A stretch of DNA of 62,378 nucleotides from Planktothrix serta PCC 8927 (GTDB lineage: Bacteria > Cyanobacteriota > Cyanobacteriia > Cyanobacteriales > Microcoleaceae), in the NCBI RefSeq assembly GCF_900010725.2, contig NZ_LR734876.1, positions 62,319 to 124,696 of the forward strand. The letters are read 5' to 3'. A program made the translations under genes and the position numbers. The notes under the pieces are model-generated. The model saw only the letters and a list, made by a program, of their open reading frames with translations, had not been told where the DNA came from and made no database searches. This document shows, piece by piece, positions 2,258 to 54,132 of the stretch. The first letter of the stretch is position 1. Every line of letters begins with the position of its first letter.

Positions 2258-3157
2258 ATGACCACAGAATTGATTACAGCATCAAAAAATAAATTATGGT
2301 TAGCGGCAATTAAGCCTCCGATGTATAGTGTGGCAATTATGCCGATTTGGGTGGGTACTGCTGTTGCTGTATTTGAAACTTCTACAATCAATTGGAAGAT
2401 TTTTAGTACCTTCATGACCGCCGCTATTTTAATTTTAGCTTGGGAAAACCTTCTGAATGATGTATTTGACTCAGAAACTGGAATTGACAAAAACAAACAT
2501 CATTCTTTAGTCAATTTAACCGGAAATAAATTATTTGTTTTGGCAATAGGCAATGGTTGTTTAGCCTTAGCCATTTTAGGTTTATTAGCAATTTGTTGGT
2601 GGCAAAATGATTTAACGGTTTTAGGGTTAATTCTCCTTTGTTGTGGGTTGGGCTATTTATATCAAGGGCCTCCTTTTCGTTTAGGTTATCAAGGATTAGG
2701 AGAATTTTTATGTTTCTTTGCCTTTGGGCCGTTGGGGGTTTCTGCCGCCTATTATAGTCAAACTCAAAGCTGGTCGTGGGTTTGTTTACTCACATCAATT
2801 ATTGTGGCAATTCCAATCACCTTAGTTCTATTTTGTTCCCATTTTCATCAAGTGGAAGATGATATTTTAGCGGGTAAAAAGTCCCCAATTGTTCGCTTAG
2901 GAACCGAACGGGGTGCAAAACTTTTACCTGGGGTTTGTGGGAGTATTTTTGTGCTCACGGGTGGATTTGTACTCTTAGGAATTTTACCCATTTGGACGTT
3001 ACTCAGCTTTGTTGCTATTCCCTCGGCTATTAAACTCTGTCGTCATGTCAGCCAATATCATAACCAACCCAACTTAGTCAGCAATTGCAAATTTATTGCG
3101 ATTTCTCTACAATTTTGGAGTAGCTTATTATTAGGAGTGGGGTTGATTTTGCATTAA
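2258..3157 (+). CDS. menA: 1,4-dihydroxy-2-naphthoate phytyltransferase
   Basis: UbiA-family membrane prenyltransferase that attaches the phytyl chain to 1,4-dihydroxy-2-naphthoate in phylloquinone synthesis. At 299 aa it has the family's usual length and about eight or nine hydrophobic segments. The first Asp-rich motif is visible as NDVFDSETGIDKNKHH near residue 67, and a second diphosphate-binding region is VEDDILAGKKSP near residue 207. It starts at an ATG 640 bp from menF, divergently. The neighbours menF and menE support the assignment over other UbiA enzymes. Confidence 0.94.
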   Translation: MTTELITASKNKLWLAAIKPPMYSVAIMPIWVGTAVAVFETSTINWKIFSTFMTAAILILAWENLLNDVFDSETGIDKNKHHSLVNLTGNKLFVLAIGNGCLALAILGLLAICWWQNDLTVLGLILLCCGLGYLYQGPPFRLGYQGLGEFLCFFAFGPLGVSAAYYSQTQSWSWVCLLTSIIVAIPITLVLFCSHFHQVEDDILAGKKSPIVRLGTERGAKLLPGVCGSIFVLTGGFVLLGILPIWTLLSFVAIPSAIKLCRHVSQYHNQPNLVSNCKFIAISLQFWSSLLLGVGLILH

Positions 3158-3185
3158 ATGAACCACCCTTTATAATTTATTGTTT

Positions 3186-3204
3186 GGGTGGGCAAAGCCC
3201 ACCC
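3186..3204 (+). terminator. Hairpin after menA
   Basis: GGGTGGGC-AAA-GCCCACCC is an 8-bp perfect stem with a 3-nt loop, 29 bp after the menA stop. No T-run follows on the + strand, so a terminator or transcript-stabilising role is inferred. Confidence 0.5.
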
Positions 3205-3270
3205 CAAAAAATTCCAGGTTATATAGCACTACACATTACAGTGAGGACACTTCTAAATCCAGCAAACTCA

Positions 3271-5233: not shown

Positions 5234-6094
5234 CTAACGCTTACAAACAGGCTCTTTTTTATAATCAGGAGTCACATCACTATAAAAGGTGCGAATTCCT
5301 CTATTTTTAGAAACAAAAACATTAGTAAACGTTTTTCCATTATCCGTTATTCTGAGCAAACAAGCATTAGTTTGAGGGTGATTAACGGAGTTATTTTTAA
5401 AAGCTTTAGTAGCAATAGTTAATATTTCTTCCGCATTCAAAGTATAGGCATATCCCTTAAAAGGAGATTGGACTAATTGATTGCGTACTTTCATCACAAC
5501 TCCCATAGAATAAACCGCACCCGGAAGAACTTCCGCCCGATAATCAGAATTCGGTAAACGTCCGGCTAATTTTTTATTTTGTAAGTCTAAATAACGTCCG
5601 ACATAGTGTAATCCTCCGATTTCTTGATAATCCAGTTCTCCACAGAAAACGTGATCAAATCCCTTGACAACAAACCAAGCATTAGTAAAATCATCCAGGA
5701 ATTCTTGATTAGAAGTTCGCCCAGAAATAATAAAGCCTCCGACATTCTGTTTAATATTAGCGAATACACCCGGAAACTGTTTGATCATCATTTTAAACTC
5801 AGTCGGACTAACTACATTTCCTGGTAAACCACAAATTTTATTAACCGCTTGATCAAATTCATTTAAACGGGGAGGAACTGGGGTTAAATCTTGTTGACCT
5901 CCGACCGCTACAGAAACCGGATTATTAACGGTATCAAAAAAAGGTAAAAATTCCGATTTAGGGGAATAACTGGCAATAGCAGCATTCGGGAAAAGATTAA
6001 GAAATAGTAATAGAGTTAATCCCGTGAATCTGCCCATCCAATTTAATAGTTTAGTTCCCAGATGACTCGGTGTTTTGATGAAAAATTTAGCCAT
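5234..6094 (-). CDS. Secreted EndoU-type nuclease domain protein
   Basis: A 286-aa protein with an N-terminal hydrophobic stretch (about residues 22-40) ending NAAIAS, consistent with a signal peptide. The C-terminal half matches the bacterial EndoU fold: HVFCGEL (His148) and GGLHYVGRY (His163) look like the two catalytic histidines, followed by a basic KTFTNVF strand and RTFYSD. EndoU enzymes are metal-stimulated or metal-independent endoribonucleases; bacterial members include contact-dependent toxins and stand-alone cyanobacterial proteins. The third catalytic residue is uncertain. A good ribosome site (AGGAG, 6 bp upstream) supports the ATG at 6094. Its target is unknown. Confidence 0.7.
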   Translation of the reverse strand: MAKFFIKTPSHLGTKLLNWMGRFTGLTLLLFLNLFPNAAIASYSPKSEFLPFFDTVNNPVSVAVGGQQDLTPVPPRLNEFDQAVNKICGLPGNVVSPTEFKMMIKQFPGVFANIKQNVGGFIISGRTSNQEFLDDFTNAWFVVKGFDHVFCGELDYQEIGGLHYVGRYLDLQNKKLAGRLPNSDYRAEVLPGAVYSMGVVMKVRNQLVQSPFKGYAYTLNAEEILTIATKAFKNNSVNHPQTNACLLRITDNGKTFTNVFVSKNRGIRTFYSDVTPDYKKEPVCKR

Positions 6095-43685: not shown

Positions 43686-44603
43686 ATGGGTTGGAGCGAA
43701 TTTCTATATTTAGGTTTTGGGTTGGGGTTAGGGATCGCCCTAAATCAGCTATGGCCGGGGAAAGGAACAAAATCGCCCGAACCCGTTGCCATCGATGACT
43801 CTCCCCAAAATATCACTGATCAACAACAGGTGCAAACCCTGTCTTATCAATTAAAACAAACTCAACTCGCCTATCAGATGGCATCGGAAATGAGTTTATT
43901 TAAAGCGGGGTTTTTGGCGCGGACGTCCCATGAGTTGCGATCGCCTCTCAATAGTATGATTGGCTCATTGCAACTGATTATCTCGGATCTGTGCGAAAGT
44001 CCAGAGGAGGAGCGAGAATTTATCCAACACGCTCACGCTTCAGCCTTGAAAATGGTGGGATTATTGGATCAAGTAATTTTTGTGGCTAAAACTGAATATG
44101 GTACAGACACAATGGATATTCATGCCATTCAGTTAGTAAAAGTCATGGATGAGGTAGAAGATTTAACCTGTATTCAGGCGGCAAATCGCAGTATTCGATT
44201 AAAAATTGAACCCCCTGATGATAATATTTATGTTCTGGCAGATTTACCCCGACTGCGACAAGTTTTAGTTAGTTTAGTGGATACAGCAATTGCTCAAATG
44301 ACTGAGGGAAGCGTGAATGTTTCTGCACATTCTTCCCCAGAGACAGGATTTGTTCACATTTGGGTTGATGATCAGCGTCCGATCAGTGCTTGGAGTGAGT
44401 CTTGGGATTTATTAAAATCAACCTTAGAAAAGGATCAAACTCCTCCAGATCAAGCCACATTATCCCCAGGAATGCGACTATTGATGAATCAAACTTTATT
44501 GAGTTTAATGAATGGACGTTTAGAGGTTTTAGCTATTCCTTCTGAGGGTGAAGATTCTAATTTTAATCGGACTCAATGTTCGATCCCTTTAGCCAAACCC
44601 TAA
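43686..44603 (+). CDS. Histidine kinase-like protein with degenerate ATPase domain
   Basis: 305 aa. An N-terminal membrane helix (residues about 3-20), a spacer with coiled-coil propensity, and an intact HisKA helix (ARTSHELRSPLNSMIGSL, His82). The ATPase part (about residues 175-300) is decayed: the N-box is QVLVSLVDTAIAQM instead of N-x3-N, and the G1 box is WVDDQRP rather than DxGxG. The C-terminal MLLMNQ and FNRTQCSIP strands remain. It may dimerise or receive phosphate from another kinase without binding ATP itself. Confidence 0.78.
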   Translation: MGWSEFLYLGFGLGLGIALNQLWPGKGTKSPEPVAIDDSPQNITDQQQVQTLSYQLKQTQLAYQMASEMSLFKAGFLARTSHELRSPLNSMIGSLQLIISDLCESPEEEREFIQHAHASALKMVGLLDQVIFVAKTEYGTDTMDIHAIQLVKVMDEVEDLTCIQAANRSIRLKIEPPDDNIYVLADLPRLRQVLVSLVDTAIAQMTEGSVNVSAHSSPETGFVHIWVDDQRPISAWSESWDLLKSTLEKDQTPPDQATLSPGMRLLMNQTLLSLMNGRLEVLAIPSEGEDSNFNRTQCSIPLAKP

Positions 44604-44613
44604 CTCACATAAA

Positions 44614-45939
44614 CTATTCATCCTCCTGAGAAAATTCCATAATATTTTCTAACCATCCTGACTCATGAAGACGGGCTAAACTTTGTTCTTTAATTAAAGT
44701 TTCTGTTTCTGGTGAGATATCAAAAATTCTTTTAATTTTGGCATCGGGTTGATTTTCTAAGCGATAAGTTAAAGAGGTATTTTGTAAAGTCTCATAACTT
44801 AATAATCTTAGCAGTTGCGAGGAATGGGTTGTGACAATAATTTGCAAGTTAGTTTGTTTAACACGAGTTTCAATTAATTCTATGAGAAGATGTAAACGGG
44901 TGGGATGAAGACCGTTATCTAATTCTTCCAAAAAATAACAACTAAAATTAGGTAAATCATCAGATTCATTAAATAACGCTGCAATGATAGCTAAAAATCT
45001 TAAAGTTCCATCGGATGCACTAATAATTGGGATTTTTTGACCATTCGCTTCTATTAATACCAGTAAGATTTTACCCGTTATATCTGTAACAAATTCTAAA
45101 TCCGTCGCATCCATTGGGGTTAATGCTTTTAACCATTCTAATACACCGATTTTAAGGTTTTGATCTTGACAAATTCCTTGTAATACTGAAGATAAGTTTT
45201 CTCCGCGATCGCCTAAAATATTTTGACCCGGGTTAGAGGGTCTTCGCATCGCATCAGGAAATAAATCTAAGAATTGTAAATGACTTAATTCGTCTAAAAC
45301 TTCATTAATATAAAAATCTATATCGTGAGAAATACTTTTATTTATTTCATTTTCACTAAAGATGTTATTTATTAAGTCACTATCAATCAGTAGGGGTTTA
45401 TCGGCTTTTGTTGGAAATTCTATGATTTTCTTAGTTTCTGAATCCTCATATATCTGAAGTAACATTTTTCCAGAATTATTAGGTAAATTCTCAATTTTAA
45501 GTTTAAGAGATTTTTGATAATATAAACTTTCCTCTACAAGCTTTGGCAATTTACCATTAATTCCTGGATTAACCTCTATGCGATAGATTAATTCATATTT
45601 ATCTTGAGTTTTAACAATCAAATTTCCTGCTTCATCACATTCAAATTCTTCAGGAAAATATAAAGTTACTTCTATAGCAAAAGTTGGAAAATTTTGAAAA
45701 GTAATATTCTGTTTTCCTCCTCTTATACCTTCCCATTCTAAAAAACCTCCTTGTCCCCACTTTTCCCCTAATATTTCAGCTAAATTATAACCTCGACTAA
45801 TTCCATGTAAAAAACGTAAAGCGTCACCAATATTACTTTTACCTGTGGCATTAGTCCCCACTAAAATTGTAAAATTACCCAAAGTTAATTCAGCTTCTTT
45901 AAAATTTTTAAATCGTTCTAAACGTATTTTTTTTAGCAT
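44614..45939 (-). CDS. AAA family ATPase (ABC/SMC-type, AAA_21-like)
   Basis: 441 aa. Walker A LVGTNATGKSNIGDAL (GTNATGKS, residues 28-35), Walker B CYFLEELDNGLHP, and an H-switch TTHSSQLL. ATPases of this kind, with a long inserted middle and no TOPRIM, occur in restriction and phage-defence loci (OLD/RloC-like), and some are general repair proteins. No nuclease partner gene is adjacent. It lies at the left edge of the accessory block, next to the GTPase gene. Confidence 0.75.
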   Translation of the reverse strand: MLKKIRLERFKNFKEAELTLGNFTILVGTNATGKSNIGDALRFLHGISRGYNLAEILGEKWGQGGFLEWEGIRGGKQNITFQNFPTFAIEVTLYFPEEFECDEAGNLIVKTQDKYELIYRIEVNPGINGKLPKLVEESLYYQKSLKLKIENLPNNSGKMLLQIYEDSETKKIIEFPTKADKPLLIDSDLINNIFSENEINKSISHDIDFYINEVLDELSHLQFLDLFPDAMRRPSNPGQNILGDRGENLSSVLQGICQDQNLKIGVLEWLKALTPMDATDLEFVTDITGKILLVLIEANGQKIPIISASDGTLRFLAIIAALFNESDDLPNFSCYFLEELDNGLHPTRLHLLIELIETRVKQTNLQIIVTTHSSQLLRLLSYETLQNTSLTYRLENQPDAKIKRIFDISPETETLIKEQSLARLHESGWLENIMEFSQEDE

Positions 45940-46015
45940 TGTGATTATTGAACGCTTAACTGAAAGAACTTTACACTATCATTATTTTTATGATAGTGTA
46001 AATTAATTCCTACTT

Positions 46016-47248
46016 TTATTTTTCAGGAATTTCTTGATCAATAAAAATTTTAATTGCTAGATCTCCTATCGCCTTAGTTGCCACAGCATTAATTGTTACG
46101 GAAATTATACTACCAAAGCCAGGTATAAGTTTAGCAACTTCTCCACTCAGTGTAGTTAATCCCCAATTAGCACCTAAACCTGCGCCTGCTGTTGCAATAA
46201 AATCTGCTACTGTTTCTGGTGAAAGATCACGTCCACTTAAGTATCCAATAAAAGTTACCATCATTGTTTGAATAGCTCCAATAATTGGGAACGAACTTCC
46301 AGGAATCGGATTCGCACTAATCACCCCAGACAAAACAGAACAAGTATCAACTACACTAATAGCTTGCTTACGTTGAAAGTCTTTGATTTTTGATGTTTTT
46401 AAAATCGAGACAGTTGTTTCTTTGGGAAGACATTTAAGCATCTCTTTAACTAATTCTTCAATATTCCATCTTCCATCCGACTCTGGATCTATTTCCGCAC
46501 CTTCTCCTTCATAATACTCCGCATAAGTAACAGTAGGAACAACATTTATACTATCAATAGATCTCTCAAAGTAAGCTTTGTAATTTTTGTACAAAACTAG
46601 ATGATTCCTTAGAGATGTCTCGGAGGGTCGCGTCAGATCAAGTTTAGCCTGATTATCCAGTTTCTCCCACCTTGGGCCATAGACTAACTGATCACAATGG
46701 GTCAACACACCAATTAAAGGAATTTTGCGAGAATATTTTTTATAAATTACTTGATATACTTCATCAAGAGCTTGTAAATCTTCTTTAACTCCTACATTAA
46801 CATCGCTGGCTTTACAAAGAAAGAGAATTAAATCAGGAGAATATTGATTCACAGCATTCAAAATACTGTTAAGAGGAGTTTTTGCTGAATCTTTCTCAAA
46901 AGGATCTTTATCTTCTTGAAGACCTCTTGTATCTAAAATATGAAGAATTTCACTACCATCATACTGATTATAGTAAGTTTTCCATTGAGCCTGTCCAGTT
47001 TGAGGCTCAATCATACTTACCTCAGCTACTTTTCTTCCACAAATAGCATTAATTAGAGATGATTTACCGGACTTACAACGACCAACAACCATGATACGAG
47101 GAGGACGCATTTCTAGGATCAAATCAAGAACTTCATCTAAATATTTGTTGATGTCCTGTTTACCAGGAAACCAATCAGGAATAGAGGAAACTAACTTTTT
47201 CAGTGCTGTAACCGAGGGTTCAATTGGATGATTTTTAACTTCAGACAT
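46016..47248 (-). CDS. Dynamin/Era-like GTPase with C-terminal DUF697-like membrane domain
   Basis: 410 aa. G1 VVGRCKSGKSS (residues 54-64), G3 ILDTRG, and G4 THCD identify a GTPase; there is an unusual K-S-G in place of the usual G-x-G before the lysine. The C-terminal third (about 305-405) is mostly hydrophobic and Gly/Ala-rich (IPGFGSIISVTINAVATKAIGD), as in DUF697/YcjF-like membrane GTPases. Function unknown; similar proteins appear in stress or defence contexts. Same strand as the AAA ATPase 76 bp further on. Confidence 0.75.
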   Translation of the reverse strand: MSEVKNHPIEPSVTALKKLVSSIPDWFPGKQDINKYLDEVLDLILEMRPPRIMVVGRCKSGKSSLINAICGRKVAEVSMIEPQTGQAQWKTYYNQYDGSEILHILDTRGLQEDKDPFEKDSAKTPLNSILNAVNQYSPDLILFLCKASDVNVGVKEDLQALDEVYQVIYKKYSRKIPLIGVLTHCDQLVYGPRWEKLDNQAKLDLTRPSETSLRNHLVLYKNYKAYFERSIDSINVVPTVTYAEYYEGEGAEIDPESDGRWNIEELVKEMLKCLPKETTVSILKTSKIKDFQRKQAISVVDTCSVLSGVISANPIPGSSFPIIGAIQTMMVTFIGYLSGRDLSPETVADFIATAGAGLGANWGLTTLSGEVAKLIPGFGSIISVTINAVATKAIGDLAIKIFIDQEIPEK

Positions 47249-47325
47249 ACAGTAACTAATTTAAGATGATATTAATTTTAACCGCTAAAATCAAGAAATA
47301 AGTCTATAAAACCTTAACCTAACCC

Positions 47326-47562
47326 ATGACCCTAACACCCTCAGTAGAATTTTTAGATGAATTTGACATTGTTGTGGTCGGTGCTGGACATTCTGGCTGT
47401 GAGGCGGCGCTGGCTGCGGCCCGGTTGGGATGTCGTACCCTGCTCTTAACCCTCAACCTCGATAAAATCGCTTGGCAACCCTGTAACCCGGCTGTTGGAG
47501 GCCCTGCCAAGTCCCAACTCGTCCATGAAATTGATGCTTTGGGCGGGGAAATTGGCAAAGCA
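47326..47562 (+). pseudogene. Truncated duplicate of the mnmG 5' end, copy A
   Basis: Bases 47326-47559 match the first 78 codons of the intact mnmG at 50760 with 14 substitutions, counted by eye (94% identity), starting exactly at the ATG. After the GGCAAA block the sequences part abruptly; here two more codons and a stop (GCATGA) follow. The copy differs from the intact gene at codon 36 (Cys rather than Ser) and other sites, so it is not a recent exact duplication. The copy's own protein (79 aa) lacks most of the FAD domain and is unlikely to work. Confidence 0.9.
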
Positions 47563-47620
47563 TGACAACAGTTGTTGACAAAATTTTATAATTATACTAC
47601 AATTAGTCCATATACTTCAG

Positions 47621-47737
47621 AGGTACCCCGAACTGCACGGGGGGGCATGGTACAGTTGAAATGCTGTGCGCCTCGGTATCTATCAGGTACCCCGAACTGC
47701 ACGGGGGGGCATGGTACAGTTGAAATGCTGTGCGCCT
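47621..47737. repeat. Two identical 53-nt direct repeats 11 bp apart
   Basis: Copies at 47621-47673 and 47685-47737 (period 64) are identical by eye. Each begins AGGTACCCCG and ends TGCGCCT. The unit is self-complementary in several ways: CCCCG-AACTGCA-CGGGG, ACAG-TTGAAATG-CTGT, GCAC...GTGC, and AGG...CCT at the ends. Possible RNA-encoding repeats; no match to CRISPR, because there are only two copies and an 11-bp spacer. Such tandem hairpins are seen in type III antitoxin RNAs, but the adjacent gene faces the wrong way. Confidence 0.8.
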
Positions 47738-47784
47738 GTTGAGCTTAAAAACAACTGTTGATCGTAGACATCAACATGATTTTA

Positions 47785-47813
47785 AGAACCGCGATTAAAT
47801 CAATCGCGGTTCT
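47785..47813 (-). terminator. 12-bp perfect hairpin after the DUF3800 gene
   Basis: AGAACCGCGATT-AAATC-AATCGCGGTTCT ends 5 bp from the DUF3800 stop on the minus strand. Strong stem, AT-rich flanks; reads as a terminator for that gene or for the 53-nt repeats on the other strand. Confidence 0.6.
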
Positions 47814-47818
47814 GAATT

Positions 47819-48595
47819 TTAAGATGACTTGTCATGTAAATCGTCTTCAAAATTGATGGGAGAATCAGGAATTTGAAGGAGATAAATTTTGGATTTTAAT
47901 AAATCAAAAGCTTCCTGCAACTTCTGAGAAGCAATTTCCTTCTTTTCGTTGACTCGACGAGCCAACAAATATGCTACATAATCAGCAAGCTGTAAACCTG
48001 TATAAAACTCTGAGAAGCCAAACCAGGGCTTTTCTATAAAACAAGGAGTTTCTTCTTGTAATTCTATCCAATCTTCATAGACTTTCACCAGTCTTCCATC
48101 TTGGACAGAATTATGAGAACTTGAACGAGAATCCATCAACAAAATCCCTATTTGATTTGATGTTTTGAGAAAATAGTTTAAGATATCTAGCATTTTTTTA
48201 AAAGACAATTGATATAAATCAGCATCATTTTCAATATAACGTTCAACGTCTTTATTAATTTGTTTTTGTTTGTCTATAATTAATTTTTTATTGATTACAA
48301 TAGCAAAGATAGAAGACTGAGATTGACTTAAATTTTGAGCAAGTTGTAGAAAAACTTTGAATCTATATTCTTGATTAACGTTTTTAAATTTGCCCTTTCC
48401 CTGCCAAATATCATGTCCCTTAAGTTCCCAGTCTGTCAGCTTACCTCCAGATAACCAACTCTGTTTTAGTGAATGTAGTTCTCGCTCCATTTCTGGCACA
48501 CAGTATGCAGGAACAGCAAGACTAACTAGAAAAAAGAAATTAGTTTCTTGATCCTTCCAGCCAGTTCCACCCTCATCAATGTAAAATAATATCAT
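47819..48595 (-). CDS. DUF3800 domain protein
   Basis: 258 aa. The family signatures are MILFYIDEGGTG at the N-terminus, FAIVINKK, GILLMDSRSSS (Asp) near residue 154 and GLQLADYVAYLLARR near residue 210. The conserved acidic residues suggest a metal-dependent hydrolase fold, but no activity is proven for the family, which often lies near mobile or defence genes. It is the only gene between mnmG copies A and B and is transcribed against them. Confidence 0.78.
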   Translation of the reverse strand: MILFYIDEGGTGWKDQETNFFFLVSLAVPAYCVPEMERELHSLKQSWLSGGKLTDWELKGHDIWQGKGKFKNVNQEYRFKVFLQLAQNLSQSQSSIFAIVINKKLIIDKQKQINKDVERYIENDADLYQLSFKKMLDILNYFLKTSNQIGILLMDSRSSSHNSVQDGRLVKVYEDWIELQEETPCFIEKPWFGFSEFYTGLQLADYVAYLLARRVNEKKEIASQKLQEAFDLLKSKIYLLQIPDSPINFEDDLHDKSS

Positions 48596-48692
48596 TCCAC
48601 TGTTTATACTTAACTGGGCTAATAAATTTTATCATTGGTTAATATAATCGCTACAATTAAACAGTAGATTAAGCCATATTTGTGTACAATTT

Positions 48693-48846
48693 ATGACCCT
48701 AACATCCTCAGTAGAATTTTTAGATGAATTTGACATTGTTGTGGTCGGCGCCGGACATTCGGGCTGTGAAGCGGCGCTGGCGACAGCACGCTTAGGATGT
48801 CGTACCCTGCTCTTGGAGGCCCTGTCGTCCATGAAGTCGATGCTTT
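48693..48846 (+). pseudogene. Decayed duplicate of the mnmG 5' end, copy B
   Basis: Starts at the ATG at 48693 and follows mnmG for about 72 codons, with two internal deletions of 49 and 12 bp relative to the intact gene (215 bp reduced to 154). Homology stops after ATGCTTT at 48846. Both deletions leave it frame-broken and non-functional. The upstream sequence is unlike that of either other copy. Confidence 0.9.
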
Positions 48847-48912
48847 AACCACGGCTGGATCAATCGTGTTTTTTAGTTTGATAGAATAGTATTGATCATT
48901 AATAAAATCATC

Positions 48913-49791
48913 ATGCAGCAACTTTATCTTCAATTTAAAAGTCCTAATCAATTTCCTTATCAAAACTATATGTTTAATCAGATGAAACAAGAACCTTGCT
49001 TCATCTCAAAACAGGGCGTTCTTTTTGAAGAAGATTGTCTACCACTTTTAAAACAGATCAATAACAGTGTAGCTGATGTTGTTTTTGCTGATCCTCCCTT
49101 TAATTTAGGGAAAAAATATGGCAAAAAGCATGATGATAGCCTCGAAGATAGTGAATATCTAAACTGGTGTTATACTTGGCTGGATGAATGTTGCCGGATT
49201 CTTAAAGACGGGGGCAGTTTATTTATTTACAATTTACCTAAATGGAATATGTTGTTAGGCTCTTATTTAATGAATAAGGGTTTAACTTTTAGACATTGGA
49301 TTACTATTAGTCAAAAATCGAGTTTACCGATTCCAGGGCGATTATATCCTAGCCATTATAGTCTTTTATATTATACAAAAGGCAAGCCAAACGTATTCCG
49401 TAAAATTAGAACTCCCATAGAAACTTGCCGTCATTGTGGGGGTGAAATTAAAGATTATGGCGGTCATCGTCATGCCATGAACCCATTAGGAGTCAATTTA
49501 ACCGATGTTTGGACAGACATTCCTCCTGTCCGTCATTGGAAATTTAAAAGTAAAAAACGGACAACTAATCAACTCTCAACCAAGATTTTAGATCGGGTCA
49601 TTGAAATGTCAAGTTTACCCGGAGATTTAATCATTGATCCCTTTGGTGGAAGTGGAACAACCTATGCCGTTTGTGAAGCGACAGGTCGCCATTGGATCGG
49701 AATGGAAATCCAAAATTGTGATGTGATTATTGAACGGTTAACCGAAGAAAATCTACATTATCATAAAAATAATGATTATGTTGAGGGTTAG
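48913..49791 (+). CDS. Type II DNA methyltransferase (DPPF, beta-class) of the BamHI-like R-M system
   Basis: About 292 aa. Motif IV FADPPFNLGKKYG near residue 61 comes before motif I VIDPFGGSGTT near 245, the beta-class order. It also contains a zinc-like CRHCGGE and LTDVWTDIPPVRHWKFKSKKRTTNQLS. DPPF occurs in N6-adenine enzymes such as HinfI type, but N4-cytosine cannot be excluded. The frame opens with TTG at 48892; ATG at 48913 is likelier and ATG at 48970 is also possible. It converges on and overlaps the endonuclease stop by 4 bp. Confidence 0.88.
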   Translation: MQQLYLQFKSPNQFPYQNYMFNQMKQEPCFISKQGVLFEEDCLPLLKQINNSVADVVFADPPFNLGKKYGKKHDDSLEDSEYLNWCYTWLDECCRILKDGGSLFIYNLPKWNMLLGSYLMNKGLTFRHWITISQKSSLPIPGRLYPSHYSLLYYTKGKPNVFRKIRTPIETCRHCGGEIKDYGGHRHAMNPLGVNLTDVWTDIPPVRHWKFKSKKRTTNQLSTKILDRVIEMSSLPGDLIIDPFGGSGTTYAVCEATGRHWIGMEIQNCDVIIERLTEENLHYHKNNDYVEG

Positions 49792-50387
49792 TTATTAGCA
49801 CGTCCATCTGTTCCTTTAGGAATTCTAGGAACATCAAAACTGATTTCATCTTGTTCAATTCCTAAAATAACTAAAACCCCAGGATAGGATGCAATACTAT
49901 TTAACCAAAAGTTAAAATATGGTTCTAATTCTTCATAATTCCCAATTCTATCAGTTAAATACTTAGCTAAATTTCGGCAGGGAACAATCAAAAATCCAGC
50001 GATAATGAGTTGCTGCTGAATTGCAAATGCCATTTTATTCAAAGAACGATGGCTTGAGGAAACATTTCCAGTTTCCCACTCAGCAACAGCGATTTTACCC
50101 TCACTTGTCAAAACTGCGTCAACTTTTCCCAAACCAATGATTATGGCTAACTCTGTTAACCAACCTTGATCTTTTAAATCCTTTATAAAATTATCTTTAA
50201 TAGGTTTGACACCATTTCCTTGTCCTCTTTTTTTTCCACTTTCAGGATAAACTGAAAAAGTTCCAGTTCCTACGGGCCAGTCCACTTGTTGAATAGCATT
50301 TTCAACTTGCTTTTTCGCTTGGATATAAATGGGATTAGTTAAGGTTTCTAATGAATGGGATAAAATTCTAATCTTCGGAATCTTCAT
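49788..50387 (-). CDS. Restriction endonuclease, BamHI family
   Basis: 199 aa. The resemblance to BamHI is strong from memory: EWETGNVSSSHRSLNKM corresponds to EFETGNISSAHRSMNKL, NLAKYLTDRIGNYEELEPYF to the BamHI stretch around residues 160-180, and VPRIPKGTDG to VPLIPKGSDG. Catalytic residues are KVDAV (Asp90) and AEWETGN (Glu103, Glu105), the counterparts of BamHI Asp94, Glu111 and Glu113. This predicts cleavage of GGATCC, but related enzymes can differ, so that is inference. The length is nearer the short BamHI isoschizomers. Start ATG at 50387 overlaps the controller gene by 20 bp. Confidence 0.88.
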   Translation of the reverse strand: MKIPKIRILSHSLETLTNPIYIQAKKQVENAIQQVDWPVGTGTFSVYPESGKKRGQGNGVKPIKDNFIKDLKDQGWLTELAIIIGLGKVDAVLTSEGKIAVAEWETGNVSSSHRSLNKMAFAIQQQLIIAGFLIVPCRNLAKYLTDRIGNYEELEPYFNFWLNSIASYPGVLVILGIEQDEISFDVPRIPKGTDGRANN

Positions 50388-50622
50388 AAAGTTCTAAAGT
50401 TTTTAACTGAACTTCAATCTCTTGAATAAACTGGGATGCTGGAATATCTAAAGCTTCAGCAAGTCGAAACAAAACATTCAGAGTCGGTGATTTTACTCCT
50501 CTTTCTAAAAGACTAATATAAGTTCGATGTAAACCCGCCTCAAAAGCCAGTTCTTCCTGACTTAAATTCAAAAATTCTCGCCTTTGCTTTAATACTTTTC
50601 CAAAGACTTTTGCTAAAGTCAC
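50368..50622 (-). CDS. Controller (C) protein, XRE-type HTH, of the BamHI-like R-M system
   Basis: 84 aa starting at a GTG. A compact HTH: KQRREFLNLSQEELAFEAG-LHRTYISLLERGVKSPTLNVLFRLAEALDIP, the typical C-protein form. Such proteins delay endonuclease synthesis after entry into a new host. It precedes and overlaps the endonuclease gene by 20 bp (C-R order). A C-box-like direct repeat (50681-50706) lies upstream. Confidence 0.88.
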   Translation of the reverse strand: MTLAKVFGKVLKQRREFLNLSQEELAFEAGLHRTYISLLERGVKSPTLNVLFRLAEALDIPASQFIQEIEVQLKTLELYEDSED

Positions 50623-50680
50623 GCTTTGCTAAATAACTAGACAAAAATCATCCTAAGACGTTATGAACTATAAATCTTCA

Positions 50681-50706
50681 GACTATAGTATGCAGACTAC
50701 GAGACT
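50681..50706 (-). promoter_or_regulatory. C-box-like operator for the C gene
   Basis: GACTATAGTATGCAGACT then ACGAGACT: two GACT...AGT-type half-sites 14 bp apart, close to the consensus of controller protein operators (GACT...AGTC repeated about 15 bp apart). On the minus strand it contains TATAGT, which could serve as a -10. It is 59 bp upstream of the C gene GTG. Match is by eye. Confidence 0.5.
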
Positions 50707-50759
50707 GTTTCAAAGAATCGCTAAGATTAAAGAAAATATATTGCTATCCAATAGAAACG

Positions 50760-52676
50760 ATGACCCTAACATCCTCAGTAGAATTTTTAGATGAATTTGA
50801 CATTGTTGTGGTCGGTGCTGGACATTCAGGCTGTGAAGCGGCACTGGCTTCCGCACGCTTGGGAAGCCGTACCCTGCTCTTAACCCTCAACCTCGATAAA
50901 ATCGCTTGGCAACCCTGCAACCCGGCTGTTGGAGGCCCTGCTAAGTCCCAACTCGTCCATGAAATCGATGCTTTGGGTGGGGAAATTGGCAAAATGGCCG
51001 ACCGTACCTATTTGCAAAAACGGGTGCTGAATATTTCTCGCGGCCCTGCGGTGTGGGCTTTACGCGCTCAAACCGATAAACGGGAATACGCCGCCGTGAT
51101 GAAAAATATTATTGAAAATCAGGATAATTTGACCGTGCGAGAAGGGATGGTGACGGATTTAATTTTAGGTAAAAATCAAGAAATTATTGGGGTTGAAACT
51201 TATTTTGGAGTTGCTTTTAAATGTCAAGCCGTTATTTTAACAACGGGTACATTTTTAGGTGGTATTATTTGGGTTGGTAATAAATCAATGGTTGCGGGAC
51301 GAGCGGGAGAATTTGCGGCTATTGGGTTAACAGAAACTCTCAACCGTTTAGGGTTTGAAACCGGACGATTAAAAACCGGAACTCCGGCGCGAGTTGATAA
51401 ACGTTCTGTAGATTATTCTAAATTAGAACCCCAACCGGGAGATACAGAAGTTCGCTGGTTTAGTTTCGACCCAGAAGTACAAATTGAACGGGAACAAATG
51501 TGTTGTCATTTGACTCGAACCACTGCTAAAACTCACCAAATTATTCGAGAAAATTTGCATTTATCTCCGGTTTATGGCGGTTGGGTAGATTCAAAAGGCC
51601 CCCGTTATTGTCCGAGTATTGAAGATAAAATTGTTCGGTTTGCGGATAAGGAAAGTCATCAGATTTTTATTGAACCGGAAGGTCGAGATATTCCTGAGTT
51701 GTATATTCAAGGATTTTCAACGGGTTTCCCTGAAACTTTGCAATTGCAAATGTTAAGAAGTCTTCCGGGGTTAGAAAATTGTGCAATGTTGCGTCCAGCT
51801 TATGCGGTGGAATACGATTATTTACCCGCAACTCAATGTTATCCAACGTTGATGACGAAGAAAATTGAGGGGTTATTTTGTGCCGGACAAATTAATGGCA
51901 CAACGGGCTATGAAGAAGCAGCAGCCCAAGGTTTTGTGGCGGGAATTAATGCGGTGAGATTTGTCAAACATCAAGAGATGATTGTATTTTCGCGGGAACA
52001 AAGTTATGTCGGAACGTTAATTGATGATTTGTGTACAAAAGATTTACGAGAACCTTATCGAATGTTAACGAGTCGCTCGGAATATCGGTTATTATTACGG
52101 TCTGATAATGCGGATGAACGGTTAACGCCCTTGGGTCGAGAAATTGGGTTAATTGATCACCGTCGTTGGGAGTTATTTCAACGGAAGCAAGAGAATATTC
52201 TGGCAGAAAAAGAACGGTTATACTCAACTCGAATTAAGGAAAATGATCAAGTAGGAATTTCTATTTTTAATGACACCCAACAAAAGATTAAAGGGTCAAT
52301 TACCTTAGCAGATTTGTTGCGCCGTCCGGGGTTCCATTACGTTGATTTAGAAAAGTATAATTTAGGCAATCTTAATCTTAATCAAGTGGAAAAAGAAGGA
52401 GCAGAAATCGAGATTAAATATTCAGGATATCTGCAACGCCAACAAAACCAAATTGACCAAGTTAGTCGCCAATCTAACCGAGCTTTACCTGAAGATTTAG
52501 ATTACATGAAAATTGAAACCTTGTCGATGGAGGCGCGAGAAAAGTTAATGAAAGTTAAACCGTTAACCGTTGGTCAAGCGTCGAGAATTGGAGGGGTTAA
52601 CCCGGCTGATATTAATGCGTTGTTGATTTATTTAGAAGTGCGAAATCGTCAACAAGCGGTGAGTCTAAATTCCTAA
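50760..52676 (+). CDS. mnmG: tRNA uridine-5-carboxymethylaminomethyl modification enzyme MnmG (GidA)
   Basis: FAD protein that with MnmE modifies U34 of several tRNAs. At 638 aa the family features are the dinucleotide motif [16 protein letters not shown] (residues 15-29), [51 protein letters not shown], and the C-terminal helical domain with [11 protein letters not shown]. The N-terminal 78 codons are duplicated twice upstream. Its ATG at 50760 is preceded by sequence of the BamHI-like insert, not by the sequence preceding copy A, so its promoter has changed. Confidence 0.97.
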
Positions 52677-52706
52677 TGTTATATAATAAATCGCACTCAC
52701 CAACAG

Positions 52707-53603
52707 TCAATCTCTGTGAAAGTTACTATCACTCCGAGATTGGTTTTTCATATATTCTTTAATCACAGGTTCAAGACTCCAGCAAGATTCTTTACTGTTC
52801 TTGACCTGTTGAATTAAACCCCGTTTTTTCAAAGATTGTATAGCCCTTAAAAAATCGGTATCAGATGAAAATTCTGTAGGTTTACTCAAAATATTGACTG
52901 TTTTATCTTGGTTCGCTAACCACAACATCAGAAGTTGTTCAGATTCGGATAACCGTTGATCATGTTGTTTAATCAAAGGTTCTAAATCTCCTAAAAATGT
53001 AGTTTTATAGGATAAAAATTGCTCAACACTACCATTAAATAAATCTTTGATCGTAGAAGCAATGATATTTAACCACAGGGGGTTACCACTATAACGTTGA
53101 ATCAGTTCTGGCCATTTGTGTTGGTCTGTGAGTTTTCTGTCCGCTAAAAGTTGTGTTGCGGCTTGACCTAAACCTTGAAGTTGTAGCGTTTTACAATAGC
53201 GGTTTTCGGTTTCTAAGTTGGCGATTTCGATGGGTTGTTCCCAACTGAGGAGGAGCAGACAACTATTATGGGGAGATCTGCCAATTTCAGTTAACAGTTT
53301 ACCATAGTCTTGATATTCTGGGAGATAATTTCCGACGAATTGACGGGGGGTTAAGGTGTCTTGGAAATCGTCGAGGATAATTAAGCAACGGTGCGATCGC
53401 AAATCATCTAGGATGGAATGGCGGGAGTGTAAATAGTTGATAATTGATGGATTTTCGGTCGGTGGAGTTGGGGAGAAAAACTCGATGAGGTTAGTTTTGA
53501 GGGCGTTGAGGGTCGGGAATTTGCGATGAGTTCGCCACAGGATGCAATCAAAGTTATCTCCGATTTGTTCTACCAGTTGTCTCGCTAGGGTTGTTTTACC
53601 CAT
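52707..53603 (-). pseudogene. Beheaded NB-ARC (STAND-type) ATPase fragment
   Basis: 298 aa from an ATG that is the Met of the P-loop (GMGKTTLA). In intact NB-ARC proteins this loop is preceded by at least 30-200 residues; here codons for SATGLSG can be read just upstream in the same frame, then the sequence becomes the 3' part of a PIN gene. Walker B-like CLIILDDFQD, GLGQAA and a winged-helix-like LSESEQLLMLWLAN end follow. The N-terminal signalling domain has been lost by deletion. Whether the fragment is expressed is doubtful. Confidence 0.75.
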
Positions 53604-53857
53604 ACCCGATAATCCGGTTGCTGAATTACTGTCACATTAGGATGGTTATAGAGACTTTCAATTAACTCAATCGCAGCCTGACGAAAAAACGCGCCCCTTT
53701 TAGAAAAATCATTCAAAACTTCTGCTAAAACCATTTCACTGGTAAAAATATAAAGCGAATCCATCTGCTTAGATATATCTCGTGCTTTCTGATGTAATTC
53801 GTCTTTAGGATTTAGCAAAGCAACCCAATAACCCGTATCCGCAAAAACTCGTCTCAT
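53585..53857 (-). pseudogene. C-terminally truncated PIN domain toxin
   Basis: 90 aa. RRVFADTGYWVALLNPKDELHQKA gives the first acidic residue of a VapC-like PIN domain, and FTSEMVLAEVLNDFSKRG the second. The sequence matches the family up to NVTVIQQ, then turns into PDYRVWVKQP, which is the NB-ARC gene read in another frame. The last third with further catalytic aspartates is missing, so the toxin is probably inactive. The partner antitoxin gene is intact 5 bp upstream. Confidence 0.75.
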
Positions 53858-53862
53858 TCTCC

Positions 53863-54132
53863 CTAACCTTGATAAAGGTCAAAGTTTTTTGACAAATCAC
53901 TTGGCACTTTTTCCCATTCAGATTCAGGAATATTGGCTCCAATTTGGATAGCAATTTCCCAGATCGGTTTAACAGTGGGATCATACTGAATATCTGCTGC
54001 TTTGTCTCTATCATTAATGGTTTCAGAGACTTGTCGGAGTTGTACCATAATTTGTCCTAATAACCATAACTTATCTTCTACAGATAATTGATGAATAAAG
54101 TTTTCTAGTTCTAGTAATTGATTGGAAACCAT
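53863..54132 (-). CDS. Antitoxin-like protein upstream of the PIN gene
   Basis: 89 aa. LELENFIHQLSVEDKLWLLGQIMVQLRQ is a helical N-terminus common in cyanobacterial antitoxins paired with PIN toxins. ATG at 54132; stop 5 bp before the PIN start. With the toxin broken it may now be a free regulator or a relic. Confidence 0.65.
   Translation of the reverse strand: MVSNQLLELENFIHQLSVEDKLWLLGQIMVQLRQVSETINDRDKAADIQYDPTVKPIWEIAIQIGANIPESEWEKVPSDLSKNFDLYQG

Follow-up and report, generated by a model that had tools for sequence, protein, structure and literature searches.

How do small defence genes that carry no transposase move between species? This open question is raised by a locus of Planktothrix serta PCC 8927, in which three copies of the 5' end of mnmG bracket two cargo segments, one with a DUF3800 gene and a twin repeat and the other with a BamHI-like restriction-modification (R-M) system. 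The locus was studied within a stretch of 62,378 nt (contig NZ_LR734876.1, positions 62,319 to 124,696), referred to here as the window. Our results indicate that the 5' flank of mnmG is probably a cassette-exchange site: recombination anchored in mnmG would join DNA of different species by homology on one side and illegitimately on the other, so that cassettes are exchanged and 5' ends of mnmG are left stranded. The locus can then be read as a record: because relics of mnmG alleles mark the exchanges, their order, donors and breakpoints can be traced.

Three mnmG 5' ends in one locus

A first-pass annotation of the window, made from its letters alone, had placed mnmG 5' copies at 47326, 48693 and 50760, with 14 substitutions in 234 bp for the first copy and deletions of 49 and 12 bp in the second. 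The repeat search confirmed the three positions: 47321-47559 matched 50755-50993 with 93% identity over 239 nt, and 48693-48814 matched both other copies with 91-92% identity over 122 nt. By column count, the first copy (relic c1) differs from the intact gene by exactly 14 substitutions in 234 nt, and alignment of the second copy (relic c2) placed its 49-nt deletion at gene positions 123-171, the other deletion being 12 nt long. Since a DNA search of the whole assembly (155 contigs) returned mnmG 5' matches at these three places only, the three copies are not a matter of chance. The mnmG copies and the cargo between them are as follows.

47262..47325, + strand: mnmG leader, ~64 nt, ahead of c1
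47326..47559, + strand: mnmG 5' relic c1, 78 codons, whose frame continues to a stop at 47565
47819..48595, - strand: DUF3800 gene, convergent with a structured RNA
48693..48846, + strand: mnmG 5' relic c2, with deletions of 49 and 12 nt
48913..49791, + strand: N6_N4 DNA methyltransferase of the R-M cassette (N6_N4_Mtase, 6.6e-44)
49788..50387, - strand: BamHI-family restriction endonuclease (PF02923, 5.4e-41)
50368..50622, - strand: helix-turn-helix (HTH) control-protein gene of the R-M cassette (HTH domain match)
50760..52676, + strand: intact mnmG, with the R-M control region in place of the usual leader, as in the congener G008

The cargo called from the letters, a DUF3800 gene with a twin repeat and a full BamHI-like R-M system, was borne out by Pfam and by the repeat search. 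As had also been noted, no transposase or integrase was seen among the families matched by the eight window proteins scanned.

Alternative cassettes upstream of mnmG in the genus

Nine other genomes of the genus (G001-G009) were searched and mnmG loci were recovered from eight of them; none came from G005, which is 73% complete. Across the P. serta genome and the eight congeners the arrangements upstream of mnmG differ and are assembled from common modules. Those of the congeners are listed here.

G001: methyltransferase-GTPase
G002: 196-aa gene and AAA
G003 and G007: unrelated genes
G004: methyltransferase fragment and other genes
G006: 158-nt mnmG relic, then 196-aa gene and AAA
G008: methyltransferase-BamHI-control gene, with a single mnmG match
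G009: AAA, mnmG relic, methyltransferase and GTPase remnant

In the window, further modules lie to the left of c1.

44614..45939, - strand: AAA ATPase gene, PADLOC PDC-M07A-like; the same cassette lies upstream of mnmG in G002, G006 and G009
45940..46006, + strand: 3'-terminal remnant of the methyltransferase found in the R-M cassette, joined directly to the AAA start codon
46016..47248, - strand: MMR_HSR1-type GTPase gene, found directly upstream of intact mnmG in G001

The methyltransferase remnant at 45940-46006 sits between the AAA and GTPase genes, and the scarred region therefore begins ~1.4 kb further left than first noted. Homology of the AAA gene to G002, G006 and G009 ends at its ATG.

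Junctions are held in common between genomes. The AAA cassette adjoins mnmG in both G002 and G006, the R-M/mnmG junction of G008 is the same as that of the window, and c2 and the G009 relic both lack the same 49 nt and are joined to the methyltransferase in the same way. Together with its GTPase side, c1 is 92.1% identical to G001 over 1623 nt. The methyltransferase-GTPase of G001 and the methyltransferase-BamHI-control of G008 are alternative fillings between the same borders. Inspected by eye, mnmG or a relic is preceded by the complete or almost complete ~64-nt leader in G001-G004, G006 and G009; just its last ~22 nt are left in G007, and it is absent from the intact mnmG of the window and from G008, where the R-M control region reaches the ATG.

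A module search was performed on the ten genomes of the genus, P. serta included, with 30 candidate stretches scored per genome. Long matches to the AAA, methyltransferase, GTPase and endonuclease-control modules lay, with few exceptions, at mnmG. The matches away from mnmG were an AAA piece on contig C259 of G005, a GTPase-like stretch of 69% identity in G001 and pieces of 27-102 nt.

The unit had first been taken to be an mnmG 5' copy followed by cargo. The order is the reverse: since the relics run leftward into cargo that elsewhere is found directly upstream of mnmG, the unit, as read from the alignments, is cargo followed by an mnmG 5' end, and a relic belongs to the cargo on its left. 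This left cargo is the GTPase for c1 (as in G001), AAA for the G009 relic and DUF3800 for c2; the spacer between DUF3800 and c2 in the window showed no clear similarity to spacers of other genera.

Such a unit could be carried by a site-specific element whose attachment site is the mnmG 5' end and which brings a replacement 5' end, with an integrase acting in trans or lost. The working mnmG would indeed gain a new 5' end each time, and the R-M region of the window and of G008 extends exactly to the mnmG ATG. The relics, however, end at different points (234, 158 and ~215 nt), the left junctions also vary (by eye, ~-66, -55, -22 and 0 as counted from the ATG), and Pfam returned no integrase family among the eight window proteins and 28 proteins of relatives. 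We consider an element of this type very improbable.

Relics as diverged alleles and import of a cassette

When each relic was compared with the intact mnmG of its own genome, differences at codon positions 1/2/3 numbered 3/0/11 for c1, 3/0/9 for c2, 2/0/3 for the G006 relic and 3/0/10 for the G009 relic. In an alignment of 13 rows, 13 of the 14 variants of c1 and 8 of the 12 variants of c2 were common to another row. Private states were few (one each in c1, G006 and G009, four in c2), six of them at third positions and the seventh at the alignment edge. Since such a codon pattern would not be expected of copies that began identical and decayed afterwards, the relics seem to have diverged while they were functional.

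The clearest case is that of G009. Its left flank is 97.7% identical to that of G001 over 3825 nt and its right side ~94%, and it departs from G001 synteny by a deletion of the GTPase and by an extra block. This block is 95.5% identical over 1832 nt to the AAA-leader-mnmG 5' end of G006; G001 has the otherwise syntenic site without it. Moreover, the G009 relic has the G006 state at 8/8 sites where G006 and the G009 mnmG differ (p 0.008), from which we infer that the relic arrived together with its AAA cassette. The comparison with relatives that had been proposed as a check thus yielded a site without the block for the AAA cassette of G009; for the R-M system of the window, no strain-level empty site was seen among the congeners compared. 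As for mnmG itself, the local compatibility of its sites was reached by none of 500 shuffles in a PHI-like test of our own, as expected with recombination, which suggests that the gene recombines between species.

These data bear on the mode of insertion proposed at first, long target duplication, in which the R-M system (and the DUF3800 unit) would have inserted alone and duplicated ~100-250 bp of mnmG each time. Direct mnmG 5' copies do bracket each cargo, with c2 and the intact mnmG flanking the R-M cassette, and c1 taken alone is compatible with it. PMC3874152 and PMC3031569 describe long variable duplications of ~100 bp for R-M systems, and direct repeats of ~100-250 bp around R-M genes with no transposase are a likeness to our locus. 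Here, however, the repeats differ as selected alleles do, with zero second-position changes, and the G009 relic follows the cassette donor and not its own mnmG at all eight sites. The R-M/mnmG junction recurs in G008, where mnmG is matched only once; congeners hold long stretches that match the cargo modules almost nowhere but at mnmG, and cargo that holds no R-M gene (AAA, DUF3800) behaves alike. Although c1 itself is neutral on this point, the allele-like codon pattern and the donor state of the G009 relic lead us to set target duplication aside as unlikely.

Proposed course of the exchanges

Recombination anchored in mnmG would proceed as follows. Incoming DNA of a related species, entering perhaps by natural transformation, would consist of cargo and an mnmG 5' end, with or without more of mnmG. 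One side would pair by homology, in the mnmG body, in the common left flank or in a common cassette such as the methyltransferase, and the other would be joined illegitimately, either at a cassette edge or early in mnmG (up to codon 50-80 or so). Homology on both sides would give a clean cassette replacement, of which G001 and G008 have the look. With an illegitimate join on one side, the new cassette would be added next to the old, and between the two a shortened 5' end of mnmG, either resident or incoming, would be stranded. For the window, the simplest history would comprise three layers: the join of an AAA cassette to an allele made up of methyltransferase, GTPase and mnmG (relic c1), a DUF3800-RNA allele (relic c2), and the R-M cassette, to which the working mnmG is at present fused. 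Selection for defence genes may have favoured such events.

Relics could then be used as extra homology arms, through which the cassettes on their left would be swapped. When c2 was compared with the G009 relic, 10/102 nt differed in the 5' part against 21/982 from there to the end of the methyltransferase (p 0.0003, with the cut at 102 picked after the sites were seen). This pattern is as expected if the relic later acted as an arm for exchange of the left cassette, which is DUF3800 in the window and AAA in G009.

The mnmG start as a hot spot beyond the genus

Other genera show the same flanks around the mnmG site with different cargo. In 28 of the 47 genomes of the family outside the genus, at least one labelled cargo cluster lies within 5 kb upstream of mnmG. 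Labels were taken from cluster representatives and comprised methyltransferase/Mrr (12), HTH antitoxin-like (11; the Pfam scores of this representative are under the cut-off), Gp49 toxin-like (8), DUF3800 (5), HipA-like (5), HIRAN (5), AriA-like (3) and AriB-like (3); the remaining 19 genomes had no such label. On the far flank, gene c0 is the same in 21 of the 53 stretches examined and the filling before it varies; what we take to be a psbB-like gene is also found in this flank in 16 of those stretches.

Genome G060 has two fillings with the same flanks (L188 and L156). In G071, L191 and L192 each contain an mnmG start and differ in upstream sequence. Both contig pairs probably come from co-assembled strains with alternative alleles.

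Among 388 genomes of the order, nine had two or more matches to the N-terminal 78 residues of MnmG (E 1e-8). In five of them, three in the genus plus G132 and G351, an upstream relic lies on the same contig and strand as mnmG. The G132 relic (family f4) is 95% identical over 201 nt, with Uma2, DUF5615/DUF433 and SMI1-like genes in between, and in G351, Dolichospermum planctonicum NIES-80, a PD-(D/E)XK gene and an Mrr gene separate the relic from mnmG. This gene pair is also present upstream of mnmG in Anabaena CRKS33, with a cytosine methylase and a 219-aa gene before mnmG; an mnmG relic was not found upstream in that genome. In G060, G063, G071 and G250 the second matches are on other contigs, one match being near a contig end each time.

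The call of the mnmG start as a hot spot is thus supported by the differing arrangements in congeners, by the 28 of 47 family genomes and by the relics in two other families; the search for further truncated mnmG 5' copies, which had been suggested along with it, led to these two families and to two congeners.

Some observations at these loci stand on their own. In L202, a 171-nt piece of an HTH antitoxin-like gene (3053-3223 and 5759-5926) flanks a methyltransferase/Mrr gene by mnmG, and this repeat may be a scar in the same style, derived from a cargo gene. Beside the Dolichospermum relic, L073:6517-7542 holds a 341-aa frame with a Pfam match to the first RNA polymerase Rpb1 domain only, perhaps a stranded 5' piece of rpoC1. 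One pair of insertion sequence (IS)-type transposases lies upstream of mnmG in G024.

Weighing of the exchange hypothesis

Several results weigh against exchange anchored in mnmG. A control search with aspS gave more than one match in 7/388 genomes, as compared to 9/388 for mnmG. As these counts are similar, we do not claim that mnmG exceeds other genes generally; within the genus, more than one match was found in 3/9 genomes for mnmG and in 0/9 for aspS. Of 41 local direct repeats detected in 132 loci, which were chosen around mnmG, 34 are not mnmG copies and seven (in five loci) are. No donor DNA or transfer event was observed, and no microhomology is visible by eye at the AAA/methyltransferase join. 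Allele matching in the window is neutral: at the informative sites c1 resembles its own gene at seven and G001 at seven, and c2 scores 5 and 5 against G006 and 4 and 4 against G001. Hence import is best supported in G009 and not in the window, where c1, judged by its sites, is either imported or resident. Finally, duplication could fit two relics: that of G006, which has 203 nt upstream of the ATG in common with its intact gene, and that of Dolichospermum, which is frameshifted, 93% like its own gene and preceded by ~150 nt of leader.

The first-pass annotation had named homology between copies well upstream of the ATG as a sign of segmental duplication. Such homology was found in part, as c1 has the 64-nt leader in common with congeners and the G006 relic has the 203 nt just mentioned. 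If the mnmG region had simply been duplicated locally and had decayed afterwards, these observations would be accounted for, as would the decayed state of the Dolichospermum relic and the many other direct repeats near the locus in relatives (34/41). Such a duplication does not account for the relics of the genus, which are unchanged at second positions and have states found in genes of other species, nor for copies between which lie different genes and not duplicates, and we give it very little probability.

A count of direction over 70 loci gave 14 matches upstream of mnmG (573 kb) and four downstream (386 kb), a comparison biased by queries chosen upstream and by matches in L059 and L073 that include the queries' own genomes.

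Comparison with known systems

The arrangement resembles the sequential displacement of effector-immunity modules of the type VI secretion system (T6SS) in Vibrio cholerae (PMC5361080). There, successive insertions use homology on one side and an illegitimate join on the other, as we propose for mnmG, and ordered remnants are pushed back. In the T6SS, however, insertions are anchored in the region upstream of the module and immunity genes remain as orphans, whereas the anchor proposed here is the housekeeping gene mnmG, its 5' end is the relic and the cargo is mostly of defence type. Homology-facilitated illegitimate recombination, proposed for T6SS displacement (PMC5361080, PMC2884548) and described in PMC3240628 and PMC2884548, has one homologous and one illegitimate end, as the exchanges at mnmG would have, and replaces variable segments; it requires incoming DNA and RecA-type pairing. 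The recombination signal in mnmG and an AAA/methyltransferase join at which no microhomology is visible are consistent with it. This mode is known from experiments in naturally competent species, whereas in the cyanobacteria studied here it would be deduced from serial natural scars.

Core defence hot spots of Pseudomonas aeruginosa, for which lateral transfer by transduction and homologous recombination of the flanks has been proposed (PMC10250203), also hold variable defence genes between conserved core genes. They are larger (median 26 kb for cDHS1), often contain mobile elements and lie near tRNA/tmRNA genes, whereas the cassettes at mnmG are of ~1-5 kb, lie at the start of a protein gene and have left scars that record the exchanges. 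Among the papers listed that combine two of the subjects mnmG, integration hotspots and cyanobacteria, none described the mnmG site in its title or abstract opening. The locus suggests that one might look in general for housekeeping genes whose 5' ends are stranded next to genes of defence.

A DUF3800 gene with a tandem structured RNA

The DUF3800 protein matches PF12686 (2e-14; 55 bits, above the gathering cut-off of 21). The twin repeat next to its gene consists of two identical copies of 53 nt, 64 nt apart from start to start, and belongs to the following features.

47575..47603, + strand: sigma-70-like promoter TTGACA-17-TACAAT, identified by an 11/12 consensus match only, 15 nt past the end of c1
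47615..47673, + strand: structured RNA repeat 1, a match to model R1 with its core at 47621-47673
47679..47747, + strand: structured RNA repeat 2, a match to model R1 with its core at 47685-47737
47771..47827, no strand assigned: inverted repeat between the RNA and the 3' end of DUF3800, at which a terminator scan called none

In the 388 genomes, eight strong DUF3800 homologues were detected besides that of the window (41-57% identity; in three of them an in-frame stop interrupts the matching part), spread over families f1, f8, f14 and f33. Seven lie directly upstream of mnmG and one ~3.2 kb upstream, all divergent from mnmG. The repeat accompanies 8/8 of them in 2-4 copies, convergent with DUF3800, although of the pair in L154 one copy is degenerate. 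A TTGACA/TATACT-like promoter was seen by eye ahead of the repeat in the window and in most homologue loci, not clearly in L161. Six weaker homologues (at most 36% identity, E 8e-8 or worse) were also found, five of them on a contig without mnmG.

A three-way-junction structure proposed for the RNA is paired in 98.8% of cells when 21 full repeats out of 22 are aligned, as compared to at most 58% for versions shifted by 1-3 columns. Two pairs change on both sides and three on one. The number of double-change cells exceeds all 500 of 500 shuffles, while the number of such pairs (2) was reached by 53/500 and the number of pair types by 218/500, a modest covariation owing to the high conservation of the repeats. 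Structured RNAs beside DUF3800 genes are known from Rfam (RF02969 DUF3800-I and RF02968 DUF3800-IX; PMC11701678). The RNA described here differs in being tandem, convergent with DUF3800 and close to mnmG, and it does not match their models: the Rfam DUF3800 families gave no match in window 44000-54000 (E up to 5) or in L154-L161, the eight homologue loci (E up to 1). The DUF3800 gene is thus linked to a structured RNA without an Rfam match, and the RNA-DUF3800 module is possibly new.

Searched across the phylum under strict filters, the RNA model was found in 4/386 genomes. In G000, G019 and G115 it is linked to mnmG; the match in G578 is weak, with no mnmG within the 10 kb examined. RNA copies with no detectable DUF3800 in the stretch lie upstream of mnmG in five loci, as listed. 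Since these loci were chosen for mnmG, their linkage is not independent evidence, with the exception of G115, which was also found in the phylum-wide search.

RNA copies without DUF3800 (genomes G020, G021, G040, G042 and G115): L228:5773-5904, L203:1110-1178, L236:3175-3243, L237:3799-3867 and L240:5636-5704

In order to account for this linkage, DUF3800-RNA, and perhaps other cargo, could be kept by mnmG for a role with the tRNA modification made by MnmG, the relics being by-products. All eight strong homologues in the 388 genomes lie upstream of mnmG, and so does the RNA in the five loci chosen for mnmG, as such a role would predict. Very different cargo occurs at the same site, including R-M, toxin-antitoxin, AriA/AriB-like and HipA-like genes, which a shared dock fits better, and we know of no biochemical link between DUF3800-RNA and MnmG. 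A functional tie to mnmG thus seems rather improbable.

Residues D7, E8, D155 and D205 are invariant in six aligned DUF3800 homologues. Given these residues and the RNase H fold predicted for DUF3800 (PMC10910872), a nuclease with an RNA partner is plausible. Searches returned no PDB sequence up to E 1 and no DUF3800 relative in viral contigs or plasmids, and the RNA core pattern was absent from viral contigs. The orphan RNAs would fit an antidote role. We tentatively raise the possibility that DUF3800 and its tandem three-way-junction RNA form an undescribed, toxin-antidote-like defence module that crosses cyanobacterial families only as an mnmG-linked allele, with the RNA outliving the protein as an orphan antidote and the mnmG relics both recording the swapping and enabling it anew.

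In type III toxin-antitoxin systems, RNA repeats lie upstream of the toxin gene and are co-directional with it. This reading was rejected, as the repeats are downstream of DUF3800 and convergent with it in the window and in the eight homologue loci. CRISPR-like and tRNA readings of the twin repeat were also set aside.

The R-M cassette and the genes around it

The BamHI-like endonuclease is similar over its whole chain to OkrAI (3odh, 7.9e-42), its nearest solved relative by sequence, and to BamHI (1bam, 5.6e-22). BamHI recognizes GGATCC and OkrAI TGATCA. In 162 kb of the window genome, GGATCC was observed 0 times against 18.8 expected and TGATCA 99 times against 84.5. GGATCC is equally rare in congeners without the endonuclease: it is nearly absent from congeners with or without it. 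In the sequence of the window genome and congeners examined, CTGCAG, GTCGAC and GCATGC are hardly present either.

A near-mode search with the 8-kb locus gave no plasmid match. The endonuclease matched four plasmid records, all below 60% identity, and no phage; the methyltransferase matched 230 phage records, again all below 60% identity.

In the window, mnmG and the R-M control gene share a short intergenic region, 50623-50759, and the expression of mnmG may for this reason now depend on the R-M control region. Repeated GACT motifs in 50623-50759 resemble what we presume to be a control-protein operator. Directly downstream of mnmG and convergent with it lies a frame with an NB-ARC domain (52707-53603).

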